A stretch of DNA of 64,000 bases from Blattabacterium cuenoti. GTDB taxonomy: Bacteria > Bacteroidota > Bacteroidia > Flavobacteriales > Blattabacteriaceae. Numbering within the stretch: the stretch's first letter is position 1; each line of letters starts with the position of its first letter. The stretch spans positions 62,001 through 126,000 of the forward strand of contig NZ_CP059220.1 of assembly GCF_014252435.1 (NCBI RefSeq), written 5' to 3'. The position numbers and the translations under genes are program-made. Shown piece by piece: positions 3,406 through 25,354 of the stretch. Under the pieces are notes generated by a model, which saw nothing but the letters and a program-made list of their open reading frames with translations, was not told the DNA's origin and made no database searches.

Positions 3406-5169
3406 TCAATTAATAATAATATTTCCTTTTGGAAATTTATAATAATGATGATAATGAATTCTATTTTTTCTTAATAAACTAATCATAACATTAAAAATTC
3501 CTATTCTTCCCAATAACATAAGAAAAATTAATACAAATTTACTACCATTAGACAAATAAGGGGTTATACCTAAAGATAATCCAGTTGTTGAAAAAGCAGA
3601 AAATACTTCAAATGAAATTGATAAAATATCTTTTTTAGGATCTAAAAATAGAATAATCAAAATACTAATATAATTGACAATGAGAGATAACATAATAATT
3701 GAGAAAGATAAACGAATATCTTCATAAGATATTTCTCTTTTTTTTATTTCTAAACGATATTTTCCTTTAGATAAAGAAAAAATATTCATTAATGATAAAG
3801 CAAAAGTACTTGTTTTGATCCCTCCACCTGTCGATGCAGGTGATGCACCTACCCACATGAAAAAAATAGTAACTAGAATAGTTATTGGATTCATTGTATT
3901 CATATCCATAACATGAAATCCAGCTGTTCTTGATGCAGCTGAAGAAAAAAAAGAAATAACTAACTTTCCAAAAAATGAAGAATGTTCTGATATAGCATTA
4001 CTATATTCACTGATATAATAAAAAATAGTTCCAAAAAAAAGAAAAAAAAAAGTTGTAATCACAACGATTTGAGTATTTAAAGTTACTATATGAACAGGAT
4101 TTCGTATATTTTGATTTCTAAAAATTTTATAAAAATATTTTTTCAATATTAACCATATATATGTAAAAAAATTAAATAATATATTAAATCCTATTCCTCC
4201 TAATATCAATAATAAAGCAATAATCAAATGGAATAAATAATTAAATCTCACAGAATAAGAATAAAGCCCTTTACTCATAGTTGAAAAACCTCCATTACAA
4301 AAGGCAGATATAGAATGAAAAATAGAAAAAAATATAGGATTATTGATTTCTATTTTTAGATTATTACTATTTTTAATAGAAAAATATATTAATACTGTAC
4401 CTAATCCTTCTAATAAAATGGTTAATAATACGACCTTTACTGCGAAAGAAAGAACATTATTTGTTGTTTTCATATTTAAAAAATTACTAATAAAAACAGA
4501 TTCTTTAAAAGAAAATCCATTTCGAAAAAAATAACTAATAAAAGATGTGATAGTTAAGATACCTAACCCTCCTAATTCTATTAATATTAAAATAATTATT
4601 TTACCTAAATGAGTAAAATCTTTAGAAGTATCTAAGACTACTAAACCTGTTACACATACGGCACTAGTAGATGTAAATAATGCATCTATAAATGATATGT
4701 TTTTTTCAGTAGTAGATGCTGGAAGCATTAATAATATAGAACCTAAAAAAATAAGAAAAATAAAACTAGTAATAAATATGAAAATAGGATTATGTATTTT
4801 TATATATATTATTCGTACAAAATACGTAATACGAACTAACATATGTAAAATTAAACTTATGAATAAGTAAATTTTTTCGTCATAAAAATGATTTTCTTTT
4901 TTACAAAAAAAAGATAGAAAAATATGAAATAAAATAGGAATACATAGCATTATAAATGATAAAAAAGTCATAGATTTATAACTACTTGTATTTTGTTTTC
5001 CAAAAAAAATAATAATATGTAAAATACTTAAAAAGGATATAATTCCTATTAAAAATTCTATTGTAAAAATTTTATAATGTAATTTACTCCATCCTAAATA
5101 AATGATTATATAAATAAATATAATCGGAGTTGTAAAATCAAAAATATCTTTTATTCTAATTTTTCTCAT
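3406..5169 (-). CDS. ktrB: Potassium uptake membrane subunit KtrB/TrkH
   Basis: This 587-aa integral membrane protein has the four pore repeats of the TrkH/KtrB family. The filter segments read SAVCVTGL, SAFCNGGF, SRTAGF and STTGL, each with the filter glycine. The N-terminal ~140 residues add extra helices, as in Bacteroidetes homologues. It forms the K+ translocating pore in the inner membrane. The start codon shares one base with the stop of tsaB, and ktrA follows after 19 bases, so tsaB-ktrB-ktrA probably form one transcript. Confidence 0.87.
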   Translation of the reverse strand: MRKIRIKDIFDFTTPIIFIYIIIYLGWSKLHYKIFTIEFLIGIISFLSILHIIIFFGKQNTSSYKSMTFLSFIMLCIPILFHIFLSFFCKKENHFYDEKIYLFISLILHMLVRITYFVRIIYIKIHNPIFIFITSFIFLIFLGSILLMLPASTTEKNISFIDALFTSTSAVCVTGLVVLDTSKDFTHLGKIIILILIELGGLGILTITSFISYFFRNGFSFKESVFISNFLNMKTTNNVLSFAVKVVLLTILLEGLGTVLIYFSIKNSNNLKIEINNPIFFSIFHSISAFCNGGFSTMSKGLYSYSVRFNYLFHLIIALLLILGGIGFNILFNFFTYIWLILKKYFYKIFRNQNIRNPVHIVTLNTQIVVITTFFFLFFGTIFYYISEYSNAISEHSSFFGKLVISFFSSAASRTAGFHVMDMNTMNPITILVTIFFMWVGASPASTGGGIKTSTFALSLMNIFSLSKGKYRLEIKKREISYEDIRLSFSIIMLSLIVNYISILIILFLDPKKDILSISFEVFSAFSTTGLSLGITPYLSNGSKFVLIFLMLLGRIGIFNVMISLLRKNRIHYHHYYKFPKGNIIIN

Positions 5170-19272: not shown

Positions 19273-20949
19273 ATGAAAAATAAGATCAATAATTCTAGTA
19301 AAGAAATAACAGAAAATTCTCAATTACCAGCTGCTCATGCTATGTTATATGCTATAGGAATGAAAAAATCAGATTTTTGTAAAGCTCAAGTAGGAATTGT
19401 TAGTAATTGGTACGAAGGAAATCCTTGTAATATTCATCTAAATCAATTATCAAAAAAAATCAAATCTTCAGTAATTTCTAATGGATTAATAGGTATACAA
19501 ATCACTACTATTGGAGTAAGTGATGGTATTACTATGGGAACATCAGGAATGAAATATTCTTTACCATCAAGAGAATTAATTGCGGATAGTATTGAAACTG
19601 CAATACAATCCCATTTTTATGATGGAGTCATAGCTATTCCTGGTTGTGATAAAAATATAACAGGAGTATTATTGGGAATACTTAGATTAAATAAACCGTC
19701 TATTATAGTATATGGAGGTTCTATTTCTTCTGGTTCCTATCAAGGAAAAAAATTAGATATAATTTCTTCTTTTGAAGCCTTAGGTAAAAAAAAATCTGGA
19801 AAAATTACTGAAAAAGAATATATAAATATAATAAAAAAATCTTGTCCTGGACCAGGAGCTTGTGGTGGAATGTATACAGCAAACACTATGTCTTCAGCAT
19901 TAGAAGCTATGGGGATAATGCTTCCATATTCATCTTCTTTTCCATCTACAAGTAAAGAAAAAAAAGAAGAATGTAAAATAGTATCTTATTATATAAAAAA
20001 ATTATTAAAAAAAGGAATCAAACCCAAACATATAATAACTAAAAGATCTATTGAAAATGGTATAAAGTTAGCTATTTCTTTAGGAGGATCGACTAATTTA
20101 GTATTACATATGTTAGCTATATCTAAAGCAGCAAATATTGATTTTTCTTTAACCCATTTCCAAAAAATCAGTGAAAAAACTCCAGTAATTGGAAATTTAA
20201 AACCAAGTGGAAATTTTTTAATGGAAGATATACATAATCATATTGGAGGGATGCCTGTTATTATCAAATATCTTATTCAAAAAGGTATTTTATCAGGTCA
20301 TTGTTTAACAATTACTGGAAAAACATTGTATGAAAATGTAAAAAATGCTCCTGATTTAGATTTTAATAAACAAATTATTTATCCTATAGAAAATCCTATT
20401 CAAAAAAATGGACACATTAAAATTTTATATGGAAATATTGCAACAGAAGGATCAGTTGCAAAAATAACAGGAAAAGAAGGTAAATTTTTTCGTGGAAAAG
20501 CTATAGTATTTAATTCAGAAGAAGAAGCGAATCAATATATTATAAATAATCAATTATTTCCAAATACAGTAATTGTCATTAGATATGTTGGACCTATCGG
20601 TGGACCAGGAATGCCGGAAATGTTAAAACCGACATCATATATTATGGGATCTGGTTTAGGGAAGAAAATTGCTCTCATTACAGATGGTCGTTTTTCAGGT
20701 GGATCTCATGGATTTGTAGTTGGACATATCACTCCAGAAGCACAATTAGGTGGAACAATAGCTATAATTGAAAATGGTGATTCTATAGAAATAGACGCAG
20801 AAAATAACGTTATAAATCTTGAAATAGAAGAAAATGAAATAAATAGTAGAAAAAATCGATGGAAAGCACCATTATTAAAAATCAATCAAGGATATTTATA
20901 TAAATATGCAAAAATGGTATCCTCTGCTTCTCAAGGATGTATTACTTAG
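19273..20949 (+). CDS. ilvD: Dihydroxy-acid dehydratase
   Basis: Product: 558 aa. Iron-sulfur cysteines are visible in PGCDKNITG and CPGPGACGGMYTANTMSSALEA. YVGPIGGPGMPEMLKPTS and ALITDGRFSGGSHGFVVGHITPEA are the C-terminal family signatures. It dehydrates the dihydroxy acids to the 2-keto precursors of valine and isoleucine. It is first in ilvD-B-N-C-A, with 22 bases to ilvB. The length is normal. Confidence 0.97.
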   Translation: MKNKINNSSKEITENSQLPAAHAMLYAIGMKKSDFCKAQVGIVSNWYEGNPCNIHLNQLSKKIKSSVISNGLIGIQITTIGVSDGITMGTSGMKYSLPSRELIADSIETAIQSHFYDGVIAIPGCDKNITGVLLGILRLNKPSIIVYGGSISSGSYQGKKLDIISSFEALGKKKSGKITEKEYINIIKKSCPGPGACGGMYTANTMSSALEAMGIMLPYSSSFPSTSKEKKEECKIVSYYIKKLLKKGIKPKHIITKRSIENGIKLAISLGGSTNLVLHMLAISKAANIDFSLTHFQKISEKTPVIGNLKPSGNFLMEDIHNHIGGMPVIIKYLIQKGILSGHCLTITGKTLYENVKNAPDLDFNKQIIYPIENPIQKNGHIKILYGNIATEGSVAKITGKEGKFFRGKAIVFNSEEEANQYIINNQLFPNTVIVIRYVGPIGGPGMPEMLKPTSYIMGSGLGKKIALITDGRFSGGSHGFVVGHITPEAQLGGTIAIIENGDSIEIDAENNVINLEIEENEINSRKNRWKAPLLKINQGYLYKYAKMVSSASQGCIT

Positions 20950-20971: not shown

Positions 20972-22663
20972 ATGAAAAAGTTAATTTCTGGTTCTGAAAT
21001 AGTAATAAAAACGCTATTAAATGAAAGTGTAGAATACATTTTTGGATATCCAGGAGGAGCTATCATGCCTATATATGATTCGTTACATGATTATATTAAT
21101 CTAGTTTCGCATATTTTAATGCGCCATGAACAAGGTTCCATTCATGCAGCACAAGGATATGCGCGCGTTACTGGTAAAGTGGGTGTATGTTTTACCACAT
21201 CAGGACCTGGAGCTACAAATTTGATTACAGGGTTAGCTGATGCTTTAATAGATAGTACTCCTATAGTGTGTATTACAGGACAAGTATTTTCTCATTTATT
21301 GGGTACCGATGCTTTTCAAGAGACAAATATTATAGACATTTCTCTTTCTGTTACAAAATGGAATGTGCAAGTATTGAGAGCTGAAGATATTTGTGCATCC
21401 ATTCAAAAAGGATTTATTATAGCTAAAAAAGGACGTCCTGGACCCGTTTTAATCGATATTACTAAAGATGCTCAATTTCAAAAAACTAAATTTAGTTACA
21501 AACCTTTTGACCAAATCGAATATTTCAAACCTTATCCATGTATAAAAGAAGAAAAAATAAAAAAAGCAGCACATTTAATAAATAATGCCAAAAAACCTTT
21601 AATTATTACAGGGCAAGGAGTTGTATTATCTAATTCAGAAGATGAATTCAAAAAATTTGTTGAAAAAACTGGTATTCCGGTAGCAAGTACTCTATTAGGA
21701 TTGGGTTCTTTGAATAGTACGCATCATTTATATGTTGGCATGTTAGGAATGCATGGAAATTATGCTCCTAATATATTAACAAATCAATGTGATCTTATTA
21801 TTGCAATTGGAATGAGATTTGATGATCGTGTAACAGGAAATATAAATAAATATGCAAAACAAGCTAAAATTATTCATTTAGAAATAGATTCTTCTGAAAT
21901 AAATAAAAATATATTATGTCATATACCAATTATAGGAGATTGTAAAAAATCTTTACAAAAACTAATCTATTACGTTTACAAATCTAATCATGAAAAATGG
22001 GTTCAAAAATTTTTTTTTCTGAAGAAAAAAGAAGAAAAAATCATAATTCAAAAAGATCTAAATCCAATAAAAGGAAACATTTCTATGGGAGAAGTTTTAA
22101 AGTGGATTAATTTATACAAAAAAAAAAATGCAATTCTTGTAACTGATGTTGGGCAACATCAGATGATCGCTTCTAGGTATTTTAATTTTACTTACAAAAA
22201 AAGTCAAATAACATCTGGAGGTTTGGGTACAATGGGTTTTGCTTTACCTGCTTCTATAGGTGCAAAAATAGGTGCAAAAAAAAGACAAGTTATTTGTATA
22301 GTTGGAGATGGAGGAATTCAAATGACAATTCAGGAAATGGGTACTATTTTACAAAATAATATTTGTATAAAAATTATTTTATTAAATAACAATTTTTTAG
22401 GAATGGTTCGTCAATGGCAACAATTATTTTTCAATAAACGTTATTCTTGTACAAAATTGATTAATCCAGATTTTGTAAAATTATCAAATGCTTATAATAT
22501 TAAATCTGAAAGAGTAAAAAAAAGAGAAAACTTAAAAAAATCAGTGAAAAGAGCTTTATATAACAAAAAATCTTTTCTGTTAGAAATCGTGGTAAAAAAA
22601 GAAGATAATGTTTTTCCTATGATACCTTCCGATTCGGCTGTAGATGAAATTCGTTTAACATAA
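20972..22663 (+). CDS. ilvB: Acetohydroxyacid synthase large subunit
   Basis: This 563-aa ThDP enzyme has the catalytic glutamate in LMRHEQGSIHAAQGYAR, the FAD region GMLGMHGNYAPNILTNQCDLIIAIGMRFDDRVTGN, and the ThDP/Mg motif GDGGIQMTIQEMGTILQNNICIKIILLNNNFLGMV. It condenses pyruvate with pyruvate or 2-ketobutyrate. A clean A11 tract at about 22118-22128 lies inside an intact frame. The partner small subunit is encoded 34 bases downstream. Confidence 0.97.
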   Translation: MKKLISGSEIVIKTLLNESVEYIFGYPGGAIMPIYDSLHDYINLVSHILMRHEQGSIHAAQGYARVTGKVGVCFTTSGPGATNLITGLADALIDSTPIVCITGQVFSHLLGTDAFQETNIIDISLSVTKWNVQVLRAEDICASIQKGFIIAKKGRPGPVLIDITKDAQFQKTKFSYKPFDQIEYFKPYPCIKEEKIKKAAHLINNAKKPLIITGQGVVLSNSEDEFKKFVEKTGIPVASTLLGLGSLNSTHHLYVGMLGMHGNYAPNILTNQCDLIIAIGMRFDDRVTGNINKYAKQAKIIHLEIDSSEINKNILCHIPIIGDCKKSLQKLIYYVYKSNHEKWVQKFFFLKKKEEKIIIQKDLNPIKGNISMGEVLKWINLYKKKNAILVTDVGQHQMIASRYFNFTYKKSQITSGGLGTMGFALPASIGAKIGAKKRQVICIVGDGGIQMTIQEMGTILQNNICIKIILLNNNFLGMVRQWQQLFFNKRYSCTKLINPDFVKLSNAYNIKSERVKKRENLKKSVKRALYNKKSFLLEIVVKKEDNVFPMIPSDSAVDEIRLT

Positions 22664-22697: not shown

Positions 22698-22961
22698 ATG
22701 AATAATAATTCTCAATTTAGAATAAGAATATTAGGAGAAAATAACATTAGATTATTAAGTAGAATACTGATTATTGTAAATAGAAAAAATTTAAAAATCA
22801 ATTATATAAATATGGAAAAATATGAAATTATTCAAAATAAATGTAATCGATATATATTAGATTTAGAATGTAAAAAGACAGAAATCATTCAATTAAAAAA
22901 ATTAACTGAAAAACTAATCGGAATAATAGATGTTTCTTTTTTAGAAAAAGAAAAAAAATAA
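22698..22961 (+). CDS. ilvN: Acetohydroxyacid synthase small subunit (short, ACT domain only, altered valine site)
   Basis: The 87-aa protein is a single ACT domain starting FRIRILGENNIRLLSRILII. Position between ilvB and ilvC and the fold identify it as the AHAS regulatory subunit. Full small subunits have ~160-180 aa, so the C-terminal domain is absent. The glycine normally found in ENxxGxLSR is arginine (ENNIRLLSR), and the asparagine of the GYNI/KINI block is lysine (LKI). Changes at these two positions give valine resistance in E. coli IlvH, so feedback inhibition is probably lost (inference). 15 bases to ilvC. Confidence 0.82.
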   Translation: MNNNSQFRIRILGENNIRLLSRILIIVNRKNLKINYINMEKYEIIQNKCNRYILDLECKKTEIIQLKKLTEKLIGIIDVSFLEKEKK

Positions 22962-22976
22962 TTAATTATAAAAAAT

Positions 22977-24032
22977 ATGAAAATTAAATTTGGATCTGTA
23001 GAAGAAAATATTATTACAAGAGAAGAATTTCCAATACAAAAGGCTAAAGAAATATTAAAAAATGAAATTATATCTGTATTAGGATATGGAGTACAAGGTC
23101 CTGGACAATCTTTAAATTTAAGAGATAATGGATTTCAAGTTATTGTCGGACAAAGAAAAAATTCTTCTTCGTGGAGGAAAGCTTTACAAGATGGATGGAT
23201 TGAAGGAGAAAGTCTGTTCTCTTTAGAAGAGGCTTCTAAAAGAGGATCTATAATCATGTACTTACTATCCGATGCTGGTCAAATTGATTTTTGGCCTAGA
23301 TTATATCAATATCTTTTTTGTGGTAAATCTTTATATTTCTCACATGGATTTGGATTAACTTTTTTTAATCAAACAAAAATAAATCCTCCTAAAAATATAG
23401 ATATTTTTTTAGTAGCTCCTAAAGGTTCGGGTACTAGTTTAAGACGTTTTTTTAAAGAACAAAAAGGAATTAATTCTAGTTATGCTATTTATCAAGATTA
23501 TAGTGGAAAAAGCTTAGAAAAAGCTTTATCAATTGGTATCGGTATTGGTTCTGGATACTTATTTCAAACAAGTTTTAAAAATGAAGTTTATTCTGATTTA
23601 GTAGGAGAGAGAGGGACTTTAATGGGTGCTATACAAGGTATATTTTCAGCACAATATCAAATATTGAGGGAAAAAGGACATTCTCCTTCAGAATCTTTTA
23701 ATGAAACGGTTGAAGAATTAACTCAAAGTCTAATGCCTCTTGTTTCAGAAAAAGGTATGGATTGGATGTATACTAATTGTTCTACTACTGCACAAAGAGG
23801 TGCATTAGATTGGTGGAAACAATTTAGAGATGCAACATTACCTATATTTCATAAATTATATAATGAAGTATCATCAGGAAAAGAAGCTAAAAGAATTATT
23901 AAATCTAATCTTGATGTAAATTATAGACTAAAATTAAAAAAAGAATTAGAAGAACTAAAAAATAGCGAATTATGGTCAGTAGGAGATATCATTCGAAATT
24001 TAAGACCAGAAAAAAAACATGATAAAAAATAA
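22977..24032 (+). CDS. ilvC: Ketol-acid reductoisomerase, Bacteroides type
   Basis: At 351 aa this is the short single-domain-dimer type typical of Bacteroides, not the ~490-aa class II form of E. coli. The NADPH site is GYGVQGPGQSLNLRDNGFQVIVGQRKNS. The Mg-binding residues lie in YSDLVGERGTLMGAIQG and FNETVEELTQSLMPLVSEKGMDWMY. It converts acetolactate or acetohydroxybutyrate to the dihydroxy acid. Very well conserved for this genome, which points to strong selection on branched-chain amino acid supply. Confidence 0.96.
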   Translation: MKIKFGSVEENIITREEFPIQKAKEILKNEIISVLGYGVQGPGQSLNLRDNGFQVIVGQRKNSSSWRKALQDGWIEGESLFSLEEASKRGSIIMYLLSDAGQIDFWPRLYQYLFCGKSLYFSHGFGLTFFNQTKINPPKNIDIFLVAPKGSGTSLRRFFKEQKGINSSYAIYQDYSGKSLEKALSIGIGIGSGYLFQTSFKNEVYSDLVGERGTLMGAIQGIFSAQYQILREKGHSPSESFNETVEELTQSLMPLVSEKGMDWMYTNCSTTAQRGALDWWKQFRDATLPIFHKLYNEVSSGKEAKRIIKSNLDVNYRLKLKKELEELKNSELWSVGDIIRNLRPEKKHDKK

Positions 24033-24082: not shown

Positions 24083-25354
24083 TTGAAAAATATATTAAAA
24101 GGATATTATCCTTCTTGTGAAAATATCATCAAAGCTAAAAATTTATTAAACAATATAATTTATGAAACTCCATTACAAAAAAACTTTTTTTTATCGGAAA
24201 AATATAAAGCTAATATTCTCTTAAAAAGAGAGGATTTACAAATTATTCGTTCTTATAAAATCAGAGGAGCGTATAATAAAATAAAAAATCTTTCTCAAAA
24301 AAAAATAAAAAATGGAATTATTTGTGCTAGTGCTGGAAATCATGCTCAAGGAGTAGCTTATTCATGTCGTGCATTAAAAATATATGGAAAAATTTATATG
24401 CCTAATACTACTCCTAAACAAAAAATTGAAAGAGTAAAAATGTTCGGAGAAAATTATGTTGAAATTATTCTTACTGGAGATACTTTTGATGCGGTACACG
24501 ATGAAGCAATCAAAGATTATAAAAAAAATAACAAAGTATTTATTCATCCTTTTGATGATGTAAAAATAATTGAAGGCCAGGCTACTGTTGGATTAGAAAT
24601 CATCCAACAAATAAATAAAAAATTAAATATTGATTATATTTTTATTCCTATTGGAGGAGGAGGTTTAATATCCGGAGTTGGAAGTTATTTTAAACAATTC
24701 AGTCCTAATACTAAAATTATAGGAGTAGAACCAATGGGTGCTCCTTCAATGAGTTGTTCTATCAAACAAGGAAAAATAATAGAATTACAAAAAATAGATA
24801 GATTCATAGATGGAGCATCTGTAAAAAAAGTAGGAAAACTAAATTTTAGTATTTGTAATCAAATATTATATGATATCAAAACAGTTCCTGAAGGAAAAGT
24901 ATGTACTACTATATTAGATTTATATAATTTAGAAGCTATAGTAGCAGAGCCAGCAGGAGCTTTATCGATATCGGCTCTGGATTTTTATTCTAAAGAAATA
25001 ATAGGAAAAACAATAGTATGTATATTGAGTGGAGGAAATAATGATATTACTAGAACAGAAGAAATAAGAGAAAGGTCATTACTTTATGAAGAAAAAAAAC
25101 ATTATTTTATAGTACAATTTCCACAAAGATCAGGATCATTAAAAGAATTTGTTAATAATATTTTAGGAAAAAATGATGACATAACTTATTTTACATATTC
25201 TAAAAAAACTTCCAAAGAAGAAGGTCCTGCTATAATAGGAATTGAATTAGCCAATAAAAATGAATTTTCATCTTTGATAAAAAAAATGAAACTATATAGA
25301 GTTCATTTTCAATATTTAAATAAAAATCCTGATTTATTTCGATTACTTATATAA
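24083..25354 (+). CDS. ilvA: Threonine ammonia-lyase (biosynthetic threonine deaminase)
   Basis: Product: 423 aa, start TTG at 24083. This start puts the N-terminus in line with the family; no ATG in frame is better placed. The PLP lysine is in SYKIRGAYNK, and SAGNHAQGVAYSC, PIGGGGLISGVG and SGGNNDITR are the phosphate- and substrate-binding blocks. The C-terminal ~80 residues (YFIVQFPQRSGSLKEFVNNIL) are one ACT-like regulatory domain. It makes 2-ketobutyrate from threonine, feeding IlvB for isoleucine. Last gene of the ilv block. Confidence 0.94.
   Translation: MKNILKGYYPSCENIIKAKNLLNNIIYETPLQKNFFLSEKYKANILLKREDLQIIRSYKIRGAYNKIKNLSQKKIKNGIICASAGNHAQGVAYSCRALKIYGKIYMPNTTPKQKIERVKMFGENYVEIILTGDTFDAVHDEAIKDYKKNNKVFIHPFDDVKIIEGQATVGLEIIQQINKKLNIDYIFIPIGGGGLISGVGSYFKQFSPNTKIIGVEPMGAPSMSCSIKQGKIIELQKIDRFIDGASVKKVGKLNFSICNQILYDIKTVPEGKVCTTILDLYNLEAIVAEPAGALSISALDFYSKEIIGKTIVCILSGGNNDITRTEEIRERSLLYEEKKHYFIVQFPQRSGSLKEFVNNILGKNDDITYFTYSKKTSKEEGPAIIGIELANKNEFSSLIKKMKLYRVHFQYLNKNPDLFRLLI

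Follow-up and report, generated by a model that had tools for sequence, protein, structure and literature searches.

The closest described systems are the small subunits of acetolactate (acetohydroxyacid) synthase (AHAS) from Escherichia coli. AHAS I of this organism is inhibited by valine and AHAS II is not, and both enzymes contain a one-domain small subunit (PMC5727371). The AHAS II subunit, IlvM (encoded in ilvGM), is reported to be valine-insensitive (PMC5727371); it has one ACT domain, is 87 aa long, and carries E, H, and C at the positions equivalent to G14, N29, and E31 of the E. coli IlvH protein. The AHAS I subunit, IlvN, likewise has one ACT domain (96 aa) and serves as partner of an AHAS large subunit, but its pocket still has G, N, and E, and it is sensitive to valine. 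According to the account of Kaplun 2006 given in PMC11893703, N11 and N29 of IlvH, plus L9, L16, and V35, are related to valine binding. In Corynebacterium glutamicum, changing G-I-I at positions 20-22 of IlvN to D-D-F gives a feedback-resistant enzyme in which valine inhibition is relieved, and with an IlvN that lacks 53 C-terminal residues, 90.8% of activity is left in the presence of valine (PMC8709942). Judged by motif, this G-I-I includes the glycine equivalent to IlvH G14.

Decay of a regulatory domain in a symbiont is already known, and its nearest precedent is the prephenate dehydratase (PheA) of Buchnera, in which Jimenez et al. 2000, as cited in PMC2649895 and PMC5054487, described an altered regulatory domain. 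On that account, Buchnera PheA resembles the case presented here in that a nutritional symbiont has a degenerated amino acid feedback site, suggesting desensitisation; it differs in enzyme, amino acid, and phylum, and in showing point changes, whereas a whole domain is also missing from the Blattabacterium protein. In a search of the open-access literature we came across no assay of a Blattabacterium AHAS with valine (an earlier remark on the subunit elsewhere is possible), no paper on Blattabacterium or Sulcia together with ilvN, and none on IlvH G14D.

A short ilvN between ilvB and ilvC

The window analysed is a stretch of 64,000 nucleotides from the 586,140-bp single-contig genome of a Blattabacterium, a cockroach symbiont. 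Its ilv genes lie on the + strand in the order ilvD-ilvB-ilvN-ilvC-ilvA. Four of them, ilvD (19273..20949, dihydroxy-acid dehydratase, 558 aa), ilvB (20972..22663, AHAS large subunit, 563 aa, intact, 687 bits to TIGR00118), ilvC (22977..24032, ketol-acid reductoisomerase, 351 aa), and ilvA (24083..25354, threonine deaminase, C-terminal regulatory domain kept, 423 aa), are full length and each exceeds at least one curated cut-off, in keeping with the initial annotation, which had described the other ilv genes as intact. The first codon of the ilvA frame at 24083 in the mechanical ORF list is TTG. The ilvN ORF (22698..22961, +) has only the 87 codons previously given for it, and its translation, predicted to be an 87-aa single-ACT small subunit of AHAS, includes ...ILGENNIRLLSRILIIVNRKNLKINYIN....

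When used alone, the window IlvN produced weak matches (14.5-16.5 bits) to ACT and acetolactate synthase small-subunit models, below their curated cut-offs. An hhalign comparison of the genus IlvN profile with free-living IlvN gave a probability of 98.2% (E 4.8e-14), and a profile of the window protein and its relatives (A1) matches the solved chains 2f1f, 2pc6, and 2lvw, which are IlvH and IlvN structures. By these sequence comparisons, the ORF is assigned as an AHAS small subunit (IlvN/IlvH) whose predicted ACT domain is homologous to known ones. Structure prediction yielded a complete ACT fold with a mean pLDDT of 92, in which residue 18 immediately precedes helix 1 and residue 33 begins strand 2. 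ACT domains bind their effectors in the region where helix 1 and strand 2 start.

Free-living Bacteroidota IlvN proteins and E. coli IlvH share the homologous N-terminal ACT domain, but they are 157-199 aa long, contain the C-terminal domain ALS_ss_C, and keep G14 and N29. This domain (PF10369) has zero matches across the whole Blattabacterium genome. The 15-bp gap between ilvN and ilvC (22962..22976) holds no remnant of it, and with the end of ilvN at 22961 and the first base of ilvC at 22977, there is no space for it. The absence of a C-terminal domain from this gene had been noted before and stands, but it is not a property of this genome alone, as ALS_ss_C was found in no genus genome among those listed in the domain search. 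The shortness of the gene had also been read as a sign of deregulation, a use that the 96-aa, one-domain, valine-sensitive E. coli IlvN rules out. In length and in its single ACT domain the protein resembles IlvM, yet IlvM forms a separate lineage that scores 93 bits against Pfam ACT_5, compared with 14.5 bits (cut-off 27) for the window IlvN, and PRK11152 is absent among the NCBIfam matches of the window proteins.

Residues of the valine pocket across the genus

Alignment to E. coli IlvH places Arg18 (codon AGA, 22749..22751, +) at G14, Lys33 (AAA, 22794..22796, +) at N29, and Asn35 (AAT, 22800..22802, +) at E31, positions that are Gly, Asn, and Glu in free-living relatives. At IlvH D69 the protein has Gly75 (GGA, 22920..22922, +), as do all 42 intact genus genes, and the N11 position is still Asn. 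The Arg and Lys recognized by the initial annotation are thereby confirmed, and the G14 and N29 (IlvH numbering) of valine-sensitive small subunits are not found in the window protein. We take these two positions to be sites of valine resistance themselves. The alignment with free-living relatives that had been proposed as a check also bore out the change: G14, N29, and E31 are kept in 8/8 free-living Bacteroidota. ALS_ss_C is present in 9/9 free-living members of the order with ilvB, and the order ilvB-ilvN-ilvC also occurs in free-living Flavobacteriaceae. At the pocket positions the aligned Blattabacterium sequence follows IlvM, in which these residues are lost too, and not E. coli IlvN, from which it differs at all three.

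Among 49 Blattabacterium genomes, 44 have ilvB/ilvC, and in all 44 that keep the pathway ilvN lies between these genes as a single ACT domain. The 42 intact ilvN genes from this set provided the pocket counts. The N29 residue is replaced in 42/42 (K in 40, R in 1, Q in 1), E31 is lost in 42/42, and G14 is R or K in 40/42 (R in 39, K in 1), with G in the other 2. The N11 position is Asn in 15/42 and K, R, or D in 27/42. As the replacements occur in 42/42 and 40/42 proteins of the genus, and the residues are kept in 8/8 free-living proteins, the changes cannot be put down to an accident of a single sequence. The two members with Gly14 encode it as GGA, one base away from AGA, and are sisters within a basal group that also contains Arg genomes, which implies either repeated origins of Arg14 or a single reversion. 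An origin of the ilvN state in sequencing or assembly of the window genome, which the poly-A richness of ilvN and the frameshifts in two relatives could suggest, is refuted by the same length class and residues in 42 independent genomes, and we assign it practically no weight.

Several residues are near-invariant across the genus (R14, L15, N27, K62, and G69), which indicates that the new state is maintained. Conservation of the new pocket residues, the Asn that remains at N11 in the 15 proteins above, and the fact that the one-domain E. coli IlvN is regulated are the points in favor of a regulation that was altered and not lost, in which a reshaped Arg14/Lys29 pocket would sense isoleucine, leucine, a keto acid, or another metabolite. 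We consider this very unlikely given the joint loss of three pocket positions, the K, R, or D at N11 in most of the genus, and the lack of any known candidate ligand. It is quite unlikely, in our estimate, that the fixed Arg and Lys act as a built-in mimic of the ligand in the old valine pocket, which would make the subunit a constitutive activator and not just a broken sensor.

Other members of the family also contain a short ilvN, with different pocket residues. The 1.3-Mb genome G157 has R14 and retains N29, G171 (309 kb) has R14 and S29, G158 (285 kb) retains both G14 and N29, and G159 (274 kb) has V14 and K29; the C-terminal domain is also missing in other family members whose ilvN was readable. 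The presence of a short ilvN in these four genomes indicates that this form probably predates their split from Blattabacterium, with loss of the pocket probably later and at varying pace, on a tree that is partly resolved. In the 263,431-bp genome G170, ilvC directly follows ilvB with no ilvN between them (L186, about 3850-3900), and nothing convincing was found elsewhere in that genome; a 50-aa frame (E 0.007) lacks the motif and was taken as chance. Outside the family, a Chitinophagales metagenome-assembled genome (L084) contains, right after ilvB (match ends 5689), an 89-residue frame that resembles a one-domain small subunit, with a non-Gly residue at G14 and Asp at N29; it is a possible independent reduction.

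Selection on ilvN and loss of the pathway

For 16 close pairs of genomes, the median dN/dS of ilvN was 0.27 (range 0.08-1.06, with 15/16 pairs at 0.08-0.53), about twice the medians of ilvB (0.13) and ilvC (0.14). Constraint on ilvN is relaxed yet real, and this purifying selection suggests that the gene product is an activator that has been kept and not a leftover. In two genomes ilvN is apparently frameshifted, at an A10 run in G063 (L160, about 2205-2215) and at an A8 run in G064 (L161, about 2075-2085); together with the family member without ilvN, these cases suggest that the benefit from the subunit may be small.

The same observations lend some weight to the view that IlvN is a decaying remnant, with IlvB sufficient alone and the pocket changed under relaxed selection by AT-biased mutation (GGA to AGA, AAT to AAA). 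The higher dN/dS of ilvN than of ilvB and ilvC, with 1.06 in one pair, the two frameshifts, the genome without any ilvN, and the AT-enriching direction of the pocket codon changes all speak for this view. We consider it unlikely, as ilvN is intact in 42/44 genomes of an old genus, its dN/dS is mostly far under 1, genus-specific residues are fixed, and the new pocket residues are conserved and not drifting.

Five genomes of the genus lack ilvC, and in these ilvB is also gone and ilvD is absent or broken; a direct search for ilvN in two of the five (G007 and G013) found no ilv-locus copy. In G013, where ilvB and ilvC are gone, ilvD is reduced to fragments interrupted by several stops, at G013:C1:553035-553671. 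In another genome (G010, L148), ilvB has a frame change and a TAG about three-quarters along, with the remainder open in another frame, which reflects sequencing error, slippage, or early decay.

A proposed AHAS activator that may not sense valine

Based on the above results, the best explanation, to which we assign a probability of about two in three, is a pared-down ACT small subunit that associates with IlvB as its activator but is unable to bind valine, so that AHAS would be active at any valine level. In this model, the short IlvN would keep the ACT fold, pair with the large subunit, and activate it; valine would no longer be bound, and the enzyme of Blattabacterium would work whatever the valine level. 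The design would be similar to that of E. coli IlvM in AHAS II, but the starting point would be a Bacteroidota IlvN with two domains that then degenerated. Of this explanation, the analysis established that the protein is short, that its pocket residues are replaced and the replacements fixed across the genus, that it is a homologue with a confidently predicted fold, and that it is under purifying selection; the retained N11, the elevated dN/dS of ilvN, the two frameshifted genes, the family member without ilvN, and the two Gly14 members count against it. The proposal that IlvN is deregulated, made in the initial annotation, thus holds in part: its pocket residues are lost, relatives keep them, and the pattern is that of valine-insensitive IlvM, but the shortness of the protein is no evidence for it. 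On sequence grounds, the Blattabacterium AHAS is likely valine-insensitive. We infer that binding and activation of IlvB, combined with lost inhibition by valine, would raise the output of branched-chain amino acids, and a higher supply of these to the host is plausible. As the change is old and genus-wide, mutation pressure may have fixed it as a by-product, just as it may be adaptive.

Valine is probably makeable inside the symbiont, as the same genome encodes, at another site, an ilvE-type aminotransferase (aminotransferase class IV); this rules out for Blattabacterium that a missing IlvE makes valine feedback moot. Three other members of the family do not have such a gene. A general loss of ACT regulation is also ruled out, since ACT domains persist in 816-aa and 289-aa frames and IlvA keeps its regulatory domain. 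The Blattabacterium LeuA (401 aa) is without LeuA_dimer, but most free-living Flavobacteriales LeuA proteins are equally short (391-419 aa); its state is thus ancestral to the order, not a symbiont deregulation, and LeuA was rejected as a parallel case.

These findings suggest that an ancient nutritional symbiosis released branched-chain amino acid synthesis from its chief end-product control, keeping the activator half of the small subunit. The relatives form a natural series, from two domains with a valine site, through a single domain in which the site has been lost in part or altogether, to no subunit, and this series makes evolved over-production by deregulation versus mere decay of regulation testable on one small enzyme, for which the Blattabacterium ilvN sequences are candidate natural valine-insensitive small subunits.
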